Assembly: GCA_937873695.1 (NCBI GenBank)
Contig: CALMYL010000013.1
Location: forward strand, 1-64,000
DNA length: 64,000 nt
Origin: an uncultured Ignavibacteria bacterium
GTDB lineage: Bacteria > Bacteroidota > Ignavibacteria > Tepidaquicellales > OLB5
Reading direction: 5' to 3'
The translations under genes and the position numbers were made by a program. Positions 34,337 through 49,004 of this stretch are shown here, piece after piece. The stretch's first letter is position 1; the number at the start of each line of letters is the position of its first letter. Below the pieces are notes generated by a model. That model saw nothing but the letters and a program-made list of their open reading frames with translations. It was not told where the DNA came from and searched no databases.

Positions 34337-34510
34337 TTTATGAACAAGGGGCTGTAGCCCCTTGTTCTGGAAATACACTACACTTTTCCTCTCATTCCCA
34401 AACTTTAGTTTGGGAATGTTGTTGTATTGTGGGGTCAAGTCTTAGTTTTATCAACACGAAGCTTGAGCTTCGTCTGATACTTCCGTCCCAAACCGGAGTT
34501 TGGGACGGAG
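34337..34510. repeat. Four-hairpin repeat unit, copy 1
   Basis: The 442-base gap 34312-34753 is dominated by two direct copies offset by 188 bases. Each holds four separate palindromes: AACAAGGGGCTGTAGCCCC with its continuation, a CATTCCCAAACT...AGTTTGGGAATG stem, ACGAAGC-TTGA-GCTTCGT, and CGTCCCAAAC-CGGA-GTTTGGGACG. The first could end transcription of the TonB gene, but no strong T-run follows. No protein-coding potential is evident. Confidence 0.8.
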
Positions 34511-34524
34511 AATAAATACTAATG

Positions 34525-34696
34525 TTTATGAACAAGGGGCTGTAGCCCCTTGTTTCTTTTACACGCCACTTTTCCTCTCATTCCCAGACTCTAGTTTGGG
34601 AATGTTGTTGTATTGTGGGGTCAAGTCTTAGTTTTATCAACACGAAGCTGGAGCTTCGTCTGATACTTCCGTCCCAAACCGGAGTTTGGGACGGAG
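34525..34696. repeat. Four-hairpin repeat unit, copy 2
   Basis: A second direct copy of the preceding unit, nearly identical except for a short stretch after the first hairpin and three to four point changes. In hairpin two, A-T became G-T, which keeps pairing; the loop of hairpin three changed from TTGA to TGGA. It ends 57 bases before the scpA start. Confidence 0.8.
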
Positions 34697-41231: not shown

Positions 41232-41258
41232 TTGACGGCATACTTTTTTAAAATCTTG

Positions 41259-41731
41259 CCCGCAAAGACGCAAAGAAATCTATAGGTTTTGTGAAATTGA
41301 ATAATTTATTCAATAGTAAAATACATAATGACTGAGAATGAAATAGCAACTATAGTAGTAGATTTGTGTATTAAGATTCATAAGACTTTAGGTCCCGGTT
41401 TATTGGAATCTGTTTATGAATCAGCTCTGTGTTATGAATTATCAAGATTAAATATACCATTCGAAAGACAAAAAGAAATTTCCGTGATTTACGAAAATGT
41501 CGTTCTTGATGTTGGATTTAGAGCTGACGTTATTGTAGAGGATAAAGTAATTGTTGAATTAAAATCTATTGAAAATTTGCTAAACGTACACCATAAGACT
41601 TTGATAACATATTTAAAACTTTCAGATAGAAGATTGGGATTATTAATAAACTTTAATGTAAACTTACTAAAGGACGGCATTTCACGTAAGGTTAACAAAT
41701 TATAACTTTGCGTTCTTTGCGTCTTTGCGGG
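41259..41731. mobile_element. Inverted-repeat cassette 1 carrying a GxxExxY gene
   Basis: A perfect 19-bp inverted repeat, CCCGCAAAGACGCAAAGAA at 41259-41277 and its reverse complement at 41713-41731, encloses one ORF. The arms are internally repetitive (GCAAAGA twice; the right arm adds a third CTTTGCG just inside). Outside the arms lie AAAATCTT (41250-41257) and AAAATATT (41732-41739), a 7/8 direct match that could be a target duplication but is AT-rich. There is no transposase. The 473-base cassette sits between two transsulfuration genes. Confidence 0.65.
41328..41705 (+). CDS. GxxExxY family protein (PD-(D/E)XK-like)
   Basis: A 125-residue small soluble protein. The name-giving motif is GLLESVY within LGPGLLESVYESALCYEL. 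The nuclease-like core is FRADVIVEDKVIVELKS, where an Asp and the ExK pair form a PD-(D/E)XK arrangement. The C-terminal helix and strand (YLKLSDRRLGLLINFN) are also typical. The family is widespread but, as far as I know, has no established function. The gene lies wholly within a 19-bp inverted repeat, and no toxin or partner gene is adjacent. A second member at 47620-47994 is likewise flanked by inverted repeats. Confidence 0.85.
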   Translation: MTENEIATIVVDLCIKIHKTLGPGLLESVYESALCYELSRLNIPFERQKEISVIYENVVLDVGFRADVIVEDKVIVELKSIENLLNVHHKTLITYLKLSDRRLGLLINFNVNLLKDGISRKVNKL

Positions 41732-41739
41732 AAAATATT

Positions 41740-42888
41740 ATGAAATTTTCGACTAAAGCTATACACGCCGGCAACCAACCTGACCCGACTACGGGAGCGG
41801 TGAATATACCGATATACGCAACATCAACATATGCCGATGAAGCGTTCGGTGTATCCAAAGGATTTGATTACGGAAGAACAATTAACCCAACGCGCGTAGC
41901 GCTTGAAACAAATATTGCCGCACTAGAAAACGCAAAACACGGTTTTGCATTTTCAAGCGGAATGGGCGCAACTCATGCAATCGCAACACTTCTCGAAAAA
42001 GGTGATCATGTAATTGTATCACAGAACGTTTACGGCGGAACATACAGGATATTTGAACGAATCTTCCGTAAAATGGGACTCGATTTTTCATGGGTAGATA
42101 CTTCAAAAGAACCGGAGATAAAAGCAGCCTTAAAGCCCAATACAAAAATGATATTTGTGGAAACACCCACAAATCCAATGCTTACGCTTACTGATCTTGA
42201 AATGATATCAAAGTTCGCAAAAGCCAATAAGCTTATTTCTGTTTGCGATAATACATTTATGAGTCCGTATTTCCAGAATCCGCTTGATTTAGGGATTGAT
42301 ATAGTTGTACACAGCACAACAAAATACATCAACGGGCACAGTGACGCTATTGGCGGCTTTGCCGCGGCATCAAACCCGGAAATTGCCGAGCAGCTGAAGT
42401 TCATACAAAATTCCGTTGGTGCGGTACCTTCACCATTTGATTGTTACTTAGTCCTTCGCGCAACTAAAACACTTGCACTAAGAATGGAAAGACACAATGA
42501 AAATGCTGTGAAGCTGGCTGCTGTTCTTCACGAAAAGTATAAAGACAAAATTAAGCACGTATTTTATCCGGGGCTGCCATCACATCCCCAGCATGAGCTT
42601 GCTAAAAAACAAATGCGCGGCTTTGGCGGAATGATTTCAATCGAGCTTGGTTCGCTTGATAATGCAGTTAAATTCTTCAACGGACTCAAAATTTTCTCTC
42701 GTGCTGAGTCACTTGGCGGAGTAGAGAGTTTAGTATGCCACCCCGTCAGCATGACCCACGGCGCGGTGCCGAAAGAAGAACGCGAAAAATTCGGTTTGAC
42801 CGATGGACTTGTAAGGCTATCAGTAGGCGTTGAAGATTACGATGATCTGCTTGAAGATATTACTAATGCACTGGCGGGAGTTAAATAA
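41740..42888 (+). CDS. Cystathionine gamma-lyase/synthase (Cys/Met PLP family)
   Basis: A 382-residue trans-sulfuration enzyme. PLP lysine K195 lies in HSTTKYINGHSDA; other family marks are GFDYGRTINPTRVALE, AFSSGMGATHAI, FVETPTNPML, and GVESLVCHPVSMTH. ATG at 41740 is preferred; a longer reading from TTG 41725 would begin inside the right arm of the inverted-repeat cassette. With the cystathionine beta-synthase upstream, gamma-lyase (cystathionine to cysteine) is the most consistent role, though gamma-synthase activity cannot be excluded from sequence. It is followed without spacing by a class V aminotransferase. Confidence 0.88.
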   Translation: MKFSTKAIHAGNQPDPTTGAVNIPIYATSTYADEAFGVSKGFDYGRTINPTRVALETNIAALENAKHGFAFSSGMGATHAIATLLEKGDHVIVSQNVYGGTYRIFERIFRKMGLDFSWVDTSKEPEIKAALKPNTKMIFVETPTNPMLTLTDLEMISKFAKANKLISVCDNTFMSPYFQNPLDLGIDIVVHSTTKYINGHSDAIGGFAAASNPEIAEQLKFIQNSVGAVPSPFDCYLVLRATKTLALRMERHNENAVKLAAVLHEKYKDKIKHVFYPGLPSHPQHELAKKQMRGFGGMISIELGSLDNAVKFFNGLKIFSRAESLGGVESLVCHPVSMTHGAVPKEEREKFGLTDGLVRLSVGVEDYDDLLEDITNALAGVK

Positions 42889-44454: not shown

Positions 44455-45621
44455 TTGGCTGCTATATTTTTAAAGAAGAACGAATCCCGCAGGATACGTA
44501 ACGGTCACCAGTGGGTATTCAGCAATGAAATTGCCAAAACAGAAGGCAGCCCCAACAGCGGCATACTTGCTGAGCTTTTTGACCAGAAGGAATATCTGGG
44601 TACGGGATTTTATAACAAGAATTCGCTGATATCCTTAAGACTGCTTAACAATACATATGAAGATGATCTGGGTTCATACATTAAGGATCCTATCTTAAAG
44701 GCAAATGACCTGAGAAAGACATTTTACCCAAACCGTGAATCATACCGAATGGTATTTAGTGAAAGCGACTTCCTGCCAGGACTCATTATAGATAAATACA
44801 ACAATACATACGTTATGCAGGTATACTGCTTTGGTATGAATGAAAATATCCAGCTTGTGGTTGATGTATTGAAGAACGACCTTGGCGCGGAAAATATCTT
44901 TACACGCAACGACCCGTATTTCAGGAAACTCGAAGGGCTGCCTGAAGATGATACTGTGTATCTTGGCGAAGCTGCGCCTGAAACAATTGATGACGGCACA
45001 TTGAAGTATAAGATAGATTTCGCTGCATCACAAAAAACAGGATTTTATTTTGATCAATGCGATAACAGGGAATTCATTGAGAAAATATCAAAGGATAAAA
45101 CGGTATTGGATGCGTTCTGTAATTCCGGGGGATTTGGAATGCATGCCGCCAGAGGCGGCGCGGGATATGTTACATTCCTTGACTCATCAAAAGGTGAAAT
45201 AGAAAATGCAGAGAAGAATTTTGCATTGAATGAGCTGACGAGTGAAACTGATTTTATAGTTATGGATGTGTTTGATTACCTGCAGAAAAGTATCGATGCC
45301 GGCAGAACGTTTGATATAGTTATGGTGGACCCGCCCGCGTTTGCGAAAAGCCGCAAAAGCATCCCAACCGCTTTAAAAGGCTATGCTAAACTGAATAAAA
45401 TGGCTGCAAGCTGTGTTGGAGTTGATGGTTACCTTGTCACGTCCTCATGTTCACATCATATTTCACAGGAAGATTTCCTTGAAGCTGTCATTAGCGGCGC
45501 ATCAAAAACAGACCGTAAACTTCAGCAGGTGCATCTTAATGGTGCATCATTCGACCATCCTTCGATACCTGGTATGAATGAAACAACATACCTTAAATTT
45601 GCGGTTTTTAAGGTATTTTAG
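44455..45621 (+). CDS. Class I SAM-dependent rRNA methyltransferase (RlmI-like)
   Basis: A 388-residue protein. An N-terminal PUA domain (AIFLKKNESRRIRNGHQWVFSNEI) precedes a Rossmann methyltransferase with motif I VLDAFCNSGGFGMHAA and motif IV DIVMVDPPAFAKSRKSI, and SSCSHHISQEDF in the late motif. This is the RlmI (23S rRNA m5C1962) class. The start is TTG at 44455. The stop codon overlaps the stop of the convergent MNT gene by four bases, a compact tail-to-tail arrangement that leaves no room for a terminator. Confidence 0.85.
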   Translation: MAAIFLKKNESRRIRNGHQWVFSNEIAKTEGSPNSGILAELFDQKEYLGTGFYNKNSLISLRLLNNTYEDDLGSYIKDPILKANDLRKTFYPNRESYRMVFSESDFLPGLIIDKYNNTYVMQVYCFGMNENIQLVVDVLKNDLGAENIFTRNDPYFRKLEGLPEDDTVYLGEAAPETIDDGTLKYKIDFAASQKTGFYFDQCDNREFIEKISKDKTVLDAFCNSGGFGMHAARGGAGYVTFLDSSKGEIENAEKNFALNELTSETDFIVMDVFDYLQKSIDAGRTFDIVMVDPPAFAKSRKSIPTALKGYAKLNKMAASCVGVDGYLVTSSCSHHISQEDFLEAVISGASKTDRKLQQVHLNGASFDHPSIPGMNETTYLKFAVFKVF

Positions 45622-45935
45622 TTTGTAATTTCTATTCCGAATCTTTTAACAGAAAGAATGATCGGGGAAATCTCATCCTCTTCAAATTTCTTTAGGGATA
45701 CTAAGTAGGGCTCAATTCTGGAATCAGTTTTTCCTGTTAACTTCCAGGCAATACTTGCTTTCGTATCCGGATCCATTTTGTCATCAGATACAATCAGAAG
45801 ATCAATATCACTATCAGAATTCATTGTTCCCTCAGCGTAACTGCCGTATAGATAAGCTTTGTTGACTGAAATTCCTGACTTTTTTAGATCTTCAATGTAT
45901 TTTCTTAATTTTATTACAATTTCTCTTTCAGCCAT
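45618..45935 (-). CDS. MNT-domain nucleotidyltransferase antitoxin
   Basis: A 105-residue minimal nucleotidyltransferase with GSYAEGTMNSDSDIDLLIV, the GSx10DxD metal site. A third acidic residue (SRIEPYLV) may complete it. It is encoded downstream of and overlapping (22 bases) a HEPN-domain gene, the common HEPN-MNT module order. The module lies convergent to the RlmI-like gene. It probably AMPylates or otherwise blocks its HEPN partner, as known for related pairs. Confidence 0.83.
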   Translation of the reverse strand: MAEREIVIKLRKYIEDLKKSGISVNKAYLYGSYAEGTMNSDSDIDLLIVSDDKMDPDTKASIAWKLTGKTDSRIEPYLVSLKKFEEDEISPIILSVKRFGIEITN

Positions 45936-46297
45936 ATCTTAAATTCCAATGTTTGGTTATAATAGCTCCATGCCTTTTCTTTATCAGGTAAATCAGGTTC
46001 ATAATCCGGATATCTGCCTTCTAATTGATACTTCATCAGTATACCTGCCAAAGTTTCAAATTCTTCAGGTAACTTTACTCCGCATTTTTCAGCAAGAAAA
46101 AAAATGTTGTGGGATTTTGGTGCAAATTCACCGCTGGTGTTCACAATTATTGATTTTAAAATCTTTTCAACTGACAAATGACAGAAAAATAGTCCGTGAA
46201 GTATCTTATCGTTTTCAAGCAGCAATTTAGCAGTTTCAATATCTGAATCTGCGCCTGCAATCCAATACTCTACCTGTTTATTATGATTTGCTGACAT
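45914..46297 (-). CDS. HEPN-domain protein, partner of MNT
   Basis: A 127-residue helical HEPN protein. The diagnostic FFCHLSVEKILKSIIV helix is followed by PKSHNIFFLAEKC and EGRYPDYEP. Unlike many HEPN toxins it has only one Arg, in GRYPDY, and no RX4-6H ribonuclease motif. It may therefore be non-catalytic or a substrate-docking HEPN, or may use a different site. It is first in a two-gene minus-strand operon with the MNT protein. A divergent gap of 149 bases separates it from the tryptophan dioxygenase gene. Confidence 0.83.
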   Translation of the reverse strand: MSANHNKQVEYWIAGADSDIETAKLLLENDKILHGLFFCHLSVEKILKSIIVNTSGEFAPKSHNIFFLAEKCGVKLPEEFETLAGILMKYQLEGRYPDYEPDLPDKEKAWSYYNQTLEFKIWLKEKL

Positions 46298-47538: not shown

Positions 47539-47567
47539 TAATAGTACTTTTTAAGAAGAAAAAATTT

Positions 47568-48021
47568 AACCACGAATTGCACAAATTTCACGAACGTTTT
47601 TATGTTTTATATGACTTGAATGAATGAACCAATTTATAAAGAAGAATCTTATAAAATAATCGGTTGTTGTTTAGAGGTTTATAATGAATTAGGACCTGGA
47701 TTTCTTGAGGTAGTATTTAAGGATGCATTGGAGATAGAATTTCAGCTTAATAATATACCTTACTCAAGGGAAAAATTGTTTGAGGTATTTTACAAAGGAA
47801 AACCTACAAACAAAAAGTATAATGCTGATTTTGTTGTTTATGATAAAATAATTCTTGAAGTTAAAACTTACAAAAGGTTATCTGATGATAATTTGCTGCA
47901 GTCACTTAACTATTTAAAAGTAACTAAACTAAAGTTAGGTATATTAGCGAATTTTGGTGAGACTTCTTTTAATTCCAAAAGAGTCGTTTTTTAATTAGTG
48001 TAATTAGTGAAATTCGTAGTT
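47568..48021. mobile_element. Inverted-repeat cassette 2 carrying a GxxExxY gene
   Basis: Arms 47568-47594 and 47995-48021 are 27-base inverted repeats matching at 22 of 27 positions (consensus AACCACGAATTGCAC plus AAATTTCACGAA). The right arm starts directly after the stop codon of the enclosed gene. The total, 454 bases, is close to cassette 1 (473). The same arm family is found at 48871-48894 and 48981-49004. Confidence 0.6.
47620..47994 (+). CDS. GxxExxY family protein (PD-(D/E)XK-like), second copy
   Basis: A 124-residue protein. The motif appears as GFLEVVF in ELGPGFLEVVFKDALEIEF, with Phe replacing the final Tyr. The nuclease-like core is YNADFVVYDKIILEVKTY (Asp and ExK). It resembles the copy at 41328-41705 but is clearly diverged, for example in NKKYNADF versus DVGFRADV. 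It is flanked by 27-base imperfect inverted repeats and lies between the tryptophan dioxygenase and SDR genes. The function is unknown; there is no neighbouring partner gene. Confidence 0.83.
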   Translation: MNEPIYKEESYKIIGCCLEVYNELGPGFLEVVFKDALEIEFQLNNIPYSREKLFEVFYKGKPTNKKYNADFVVYDKIILEVKTYKRLSDDNLLQSLNYLKVTKLKLGILANFGETSFNSKRVVF

Positions 48022-48849: not shown

Positions 48850-48870
48850 TGATATTTGAGAAGATTTTTT

Positions 48871-49004
48871 AACCGCGAATTGCACTAATTTCACAATTAA
48901 GAATTGGTTAAACTATTTTAGGTAATCTGTATTATATATCGAGTCTATTTAACTGTAATTCAAAACTACAAAGCAAATTCGTACAATTCGTGAAATTTGT
49001 GGTT
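48871..49004. repeat. Inverted-repeat pair of cassette-2 type without an ORF
   Basis: Left arm 48871-48894 (AACCGCGAATTGCAC and onwards) is nearly identical to the left arm of cassette 2. Right arm 48981-49004 is its reverse complement at 18 of 24 positions. The 86 bases between hold no ORF. It may be an empty or collapsed cassette. The whole lies in the gap 48850-49060. Confidence 0.6.

Follow-up and report, generated by a model that had tools for sequence, protein, structure and literature searches.

REPIN-RAYT systems combine short intergenic repeats, arranged as inverted hairpin doublets, with a Y1 HUH tyrosine transposase, RAYT (Bertels and Rainey 2011, PMC3116915). A second comparison is with MITEs and insertion sequences, in which terminal inverted repeats bound a gene and short copies arise by internal deletion. 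Rpn recombination-promoting nucleases are PD-(D/E)XK enzymes that were formerly annotated as transposases and are thought to promote recombination; their Pfam family differs from that of the GxxExxY proteins described here, and no matched arms are known for them. Cas4, including its solo-Cas4 and MGE-Cas4 forms (PMC5704561), has the closest fold to GxxExxY and the same PD-(D/E)XK and QxxxY residues, and in one published case CRISPRone called cas4 where the authors' pipeline gave a GxxExxY domain. The family models TIGR04256 and PF13366 name the protein only. In the open-access literature we found no account of GxxExxY arms or repeats or of such a system; the arm sequences occur as text in unrelated papers only, and the repeat terms combined with Flavobacterium gave only unrelated papers. 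This looks like a kind of enzyme newly linked to a jumping-repeat system, with no earlier open-access description found.

The window, by which we mean the whole stretch of 64,000 nucleotides analysed here, contains two cassettes in which a GxxExxY gene lies between inverted arms, together with a gene-less element (Table 1). The cassette at 47568-48021 is probably the copy that carries the gene in a mobile, REPIN-like repeat system; in this system a Cas4-like GxxExxY nuclease would stand in place of RAYT and act in trans on the arms.

Table 1. Features of the two GxxExxY cassettes and of the gene-less element in the window.
Feature	Position	Strand	Description
First cassette, left arm	41244..41277	+	core CCCGCAAAGACGCAAAGAA; other arm type
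First GxxExxY gene	41328..41705	+	falls in the tree half with AAG/GAG arms
First cassette, right arm	41713..41745	-	
Second cassette, left arm	47566..47594	+	outer TTAACC, then three tandem units CACGAATTG CACAAATTT CACGAA; recurs genome-wide
Second GxxExxY gene, 124 aa	47620..47994	+	minimal PD-(D/E)XK + QxxxY nuclease; clade with T-ending arm units
Second cassette, right arm	47995..48021	-	inverted copy; begins at the base after the stop codon
Gene-less mini-element	48868..49003	.	same arm family as 47568-48021; arms 48868-48894 and 48976-49003, 81 nt between

The left arm of the second cassette (47568-47594, AACCACGAATTGCACAAATTTCACGAA) and the reverse complement of its right arm (AACTACGAATTTCACTAATTACACTAA) are identical at 22 of 27 positions, and both follow one design, an outer ACC and then three tandem 9-nt units, (AC)CACnAATTn. 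The initial annotation had described 27-base arms with this degree of complementarity, a right arm abutting the stop codon (47992-47994), a length of 454 bases and an enclosed GxxExxY gene; recomputation gives the same values, and the single ORF inside matches TIGR04256 over its full length (129.9 bits, cut-off 35) and PF13366 (PDDEXK_3; 120.5 bits, cut-off 22), making it a clear family member. Inverted 27-mer pairs with at least 22 matches within 460 nt occurred once in eight first-order Markov shuffles of the whole window, an expectation of about 0.1 per window, and the real window has four, namely the cassette and three within the tandem repeat at 34337-34696. That repeat (a 186-nt unit present 1.9 times, with several short palindromes, ACAAGGGGCTGTAGCCCCTTGT, CATTCCCAAACTTTAGTTTGGGAATG and CGTCCCAAACCGGAGTTTGGGACG) is another intergenic repeat of hairpin type. 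The arm pairing is not a coincidence, since the cassette's arm family occurs about 25 times in the 3.8 Mb genome to which the window belongs; the majority of these copies are single.

The flanking ORFs encode a 363-aa protein and a 262-aa dehydrogenase-like protein, with no cas1 or cas2, and the neighbours of GxxExxY loci differ from genome to genome. Elsewhere in the window, at 45618-46297 on the minus strand, overlapping adjacent genes code for a minimal nucleotidyltransferase (PF01909) and a HEPN protein (PF05168), as is typical of MNT-HEPN toxin-antitoxin pairs.

Nine positions of the protein are invariant in 53 homologues, including E30, D70, E80, K82, Q94 and Y98; the PD-(D/E)XK residues (E30, D70, E80 and K82) are intact, and Q94 and Y98 form the QxxxY motif. 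An AlphaFold2 model (pLDDT 95.5) has Cas4 SSO0001 (4ic1) as its top structural match (Foldseek E 4.8e-5, Z 10.2), followed by a mixture of other PD-(D/E)XK enzymes. At the sequence level the match to Cas4a2 is weak (E 0.003), and profile (HMM) searches of solved-structure sequences gave matches at chance level only. The protein differs from Cas4 (PMC5704561) in its length of about 125 aa, in the absence of nearby cas genes, in having its own inverted repeats, and in lacking Fe-S cluster cysteines, the GxxExxY alignment having no invariant or near-invariant cysteine. No strand-transfer domain is recognisable in it, and the nuclease gene is the only ORF of the cassette, which has no DDE, serine or tyrosine transposase. 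Values of dN/dS are about 0.03-0.2 overall and 0.03-0.14 at the window locus (median 0.08), and the medians in two Flavobacteriaceae sets are 0.11 and 0.21, the latter set including one copy with a stop codon; judged from these sequence comparisons, the gene is under purifying selection. GxxExxY genes have also been retained for a long time at fixed loci across genera of Flavobacteriaceae.

The genome to which the window belongs has seven GxxExxY genes, six of which have arms of a common general design with different units (e.g. ACCACTAAGACACTAAG, ACCGCAAAGACGCAGAG and CCCGCAAAGACGCAAAG); the seventh has a short inverted match only. Both window cassettes have short tandem units of 8-10 nt, C[A/G]CnnA-, running inward from an outer (A)CC[A/G]C. 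The initial annotation considered the two arm sequences unrelated, and the unit sequence does differ (CACnAATT vs CGCAAAG), but the architecture is common to both, and the idea of two unrelated arm families was therefore dropped.

We gathered 193 GxxExxY genes from the genomes of relatives, from a sample of the phylum and from named GTDB genomes, and removed loci with common flanking DNA, leaving 118 loci; arms were called where a flanking inverted match exceeded the 99th percentile of shuffles. Arms are present at 77% of these deduplicated loci, as against 0.6% in shuffles, 5.6% of mismatched loci and 2.7% of 333 other ORFs in the same stretches. The possibility, raised with the initial annotation, that arms are equally frequent around unrelated genes is thus not borne out, although arms do sometimes enclose other ORFs. 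In the window's own genome (G000, contig C10, L010 2527-2991) they enclose an unrelated 129-aa ORF (2568-2957) starting MKIFPLLVFVF, which is possibly cargo, and in G007 (L082, spacer 2, from 1489) the nuclease between a dehydrogenase-like gene and the next gene is replaced by an ORF that is about 200 aa long and has hydrophobic stretches near its N-terminus; neither ORF has a match in Pfam. GxxExxY is present in half of 198 sampled genomes of the phylum, often in several copies. Plasmids contain few relatives, all distant, phages contain no relative of the first GxxExxY gene, and IMG/VR contigs contain none of the clade of the second, and nothing therefore points to a phage or plasmid element.

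Arm type follows the phylogeny of the protein. On a maximum-likelihood tree of 66 arm-labelled, deduplicated GxxExxY proteins the arm unit requires 16 changes, compared with a mean of 34.3 for shuffled labels, and none of 200 shuffles is this low. In one half of the tree the units end in AAG or GAG in 30 of 32 proteins, and in the other, which includes the second window gene, they end in AAT or GAT in 33 of 34 (vs two T-ending units among the 32 of the first half). Within the AAG/GAG half, CAC vs CGC tracks the tree (4 changes vs 8.1; 0 of 1000 shuffles) and AAG vs GAG does so weakly (p 0.03); in the half with the second window gene the AAT vs GAT signal is marginal (p 0.05-0.08). The two-way split of the tree may rest on few independent events. 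Arms of CACGAATT type occur in family members from Lentisphaerae, Calditrichota, Planctomycetota, Cloacimonadota, one deltaproteobacterium and Bacteroidota, and because these members span several phyla the link of arm and clade is not that of one host lineage. The comparison of arm sequence with GxxExxY clade proposed in the initial annotation thus comes out in favour of an association.

The genome-wide repeats point the same way. Arm copies were counted by pattern searches with reversed-pattern controls, the arms of a genome's own cassettes were subtracted, and clade membership was set at 100 bits, a limit of our own choosing. Among 198 genomes of the phylum, at least three copies of CACnAATTnCACnAATT are present in 10 of the 17 that have the clade of the second window gene, vs 7 of the 181 that do not (p 1.5e-8), and vs 5 of the 84 with only other GxxExxY genes (p 2e-6); these 84 do not differ from the 97 genomes without any GxxExxY gene (2 of 97). 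The exceptions are the seven genomes that have at least three arms without the clade and the seven in which the reverse is found; the clade genomes without the CACnAATTnCACnAATT repeat mostly have other units in their cassettes (GATT, GAAA, or CACGAATT without the spacer base). In G071 and G063 the cassette arms are CACGAAA, and this repeat has 18 and 21 copies there; elsewhere among 25 genomes there are five copies in a congener, and of the other 22 only G205 has any (two, no more than the control count), so that the unit read from these two cassettes predicted the dispersed repeats of both genomes. The GATT repeat is commonest in G079, where the cassette arms are GATT. Both G079 and G220 have many CACnAATT repeats despite different arms on their own cassettes, and in G079 some of the 65 CACnAATT copies have GATT hairpins nested inside, a combination that would fit a switch of arm type. 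The initial proposal that each GxxExxY variant has its own arm therefore stands at the level of clades, on the tree and the dispersed repeats, but the arm is not private to one copy, in that gene-less arms greatly outnumber genes and an orthologous locus can switch arm type, as G079 suggests.

These results bear on the best-surviving competing explanation, in which another, unlinked enzyme moves a repeat family whose ends are the arms, and GxxExxY is one of several passengers. The unrelated ORFs between the same arms (L010 and L082), the excess of arms over genes, the few genomes that have arms without a gene, and a single-domain nuclease without obvious strand-transfer activity all agree with it. 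A passenger, however, predicts neither the enrichment of arms at GxxExxY genes, nor the tracking of GxxExxY phylogeny by arm type across phyla, nor the match of genome-wide repeats to clade; we regard the explanation as unlikely.

Many dispersed copies are paired. G224, with one gene of the clade, has 87 sites that include 27 inward-facing pairs at 250 nt or less (0.35 neighbour pairs expected). Two of its hairpins, flanked by T/A runs, are far more stably folded as single-stranded DNA than their shuffles (z -11.4 and -8.8); the mini-element of the window folds no better than shuffles (z -0.87). The arm itself consists of direct tandem CACnAATT units and is not an imperfect palindrome, and arms and hairpins have no match in Rfam. 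At three loci (L253, L251 and L275) hairpins of GATT type lie inside hairpins of AATT type, which suggests that one lineage has seen repeat types come in successive waves. We also note that on contig C30 of the window's genome (L011, 2690-2760 and 3210-3280) two near-identical copies of CTGTTCTGATAAAATCAAAAGGCTTAACCACGAATTTCACAAATT are separated by about 520 nt; single arms accompany them, and they are apparently part of a larger duplicated repeat.

The same spacers differ among relatives. At the window locus G002 and G009 have the cassette, G003 has a single arm, G008 has a gene-less pair, G005 and G011 have a scar in which the left-arm TAATTA is fused to the right-arm TAATTA, and in G012-G014 the spacer is almost absent; the next spacer, which holds the mini-element in the window, has a full cassette in G003 and G010. 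In G004 a spacer between two conserved genes (L080) contains seven elements arranged head to tail, of which one is an intact cassette and the other six are derivatives of 119-129 nt that arose by internal deletion of the 470-nt cassette and keep both arms with pieces of the gene. Depending on the species, one spacer of Flavobacterium-like genomes is empty or is occupied by a hairpin, of either CACGAATT or GATT type, or by a CGCTAAG-type element. The orthologous spacers are too diverged for insertion junctions or target-site duplications to be placed. Linkage of arm and gene and turnover of the repeats are both well supported by the comparisons among genomes. The terminal inverted repeats around a gene and the short, internally deleted copies resemble MITEs and insertion sequences, but DDE and serine/tyrosine transposases are absent and retention at the fixed Flavobacteriaceae loci is long and vertical.

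A homing or restriction type of site-specific endonuclease could also be envisaged, cutting duplex arm-like or empty sites into which host recombination inserts the cassette, with gene-less hairpins as dead remnants. Its fold is common to restriction and homing enzymes, the arm is tied to the gene as a site would be to its enzyme, and the scar in G005 and G011 agrees with it. However, cassettes occupy many unrelated spacers and not one allelic site, and the gene-less hairpins are common, inward-paired, nested and species-variable at one spacer; by their pairing, nesting and species differences they therefore seem to be self-spreading, and we hold this mechanism to be distinctly improbable. A role for the arms as bidirectional terminators of transcription, or as RNA hairpins, of an immobile small defence or toxin nuclease gene, as the right arm abutting the stop codon and the strongly folding G224 hairpins with their T/A runs might suggest, is scarcely credible given left arms upstream of the start codon, copies dispersed away from the gene, deletion derivatives, presence/absence polymorphism, the lack of an Rfam match and nothing beyond a weak Cas4 match in PADLOC.

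In the REPIN-like system that we favour, the arm, comprising the outer (A)CC and about three tandem units of 8-10 nt, would be the site for the resident GxxExxY nuclease acting in trans, and two inverted arms would constitute an element able to fold into a single-stranded DNA hairpin. Such elements exist with the nuclease gene, with gene fragments, with an unrelated small ORF or with no more than a short loop, and in this reading have spread into intergenic spacers. We infer that GxxExxY recognises and cleaves the arms, and the insertion chemistry is proposed on the same footing: the protein would recognise the tandem units and nick or trim the extruded hairpin or the arm end, the substrate being the arm as a duplex or, more probably, a hairpin that is extruded while the DNA replicates, and host replication and repair would complete copying and insertion into new spacers.

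In both this system and REPIN-RAYT, dispersed inverted doublets form hairpins, each lineage pairs one type of repeat with one type of gene, and the resident gene has its own repeat on either side. Both also show single arms that look like remnants, clusters of tandem copies next to the gene, and elements within elements. They differ in that the enzyme here is a Cas4-like PD-(D/E)XK protein and not a Y1 HUH tyrosine transposase, that the arm consists of about three direct tandem units of 8-10 nt whereas a REPIN arm is one imperfect palindrome, and that the gene is itself enclosed in a cassette of about 0.5 kb. Because enzyme class and arm structure differ, the GxxExxY system is not a member of REPIN-RAYT. 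A wider reading, which we think possible but lean slightly against, is that these elements form a class of mobile repeats, present across phyla and not recognised before, whose mover is a minimal Cas4-like nuclease that reads modular tandem units of 8-10 nt, the unit being set by clade; the way of life of REPIN-RAYT would then have been arrived at a second time, independently.

Together, the link of arm and clade and the dispersed repeats of matching type point to a possible function for the widespread GxxExxY family, and its loci provide dozens of natural enzyme-site pairs for studies of specificity. If the proposed system is correct, a population of REPIN-like repeats can be maintained by a Cas4-like nuclease with no transposase involved, and the abundant CACGAATT, CACAGAG and CGCAAAG repeats of Bacteroidota and other phyla would be explained.
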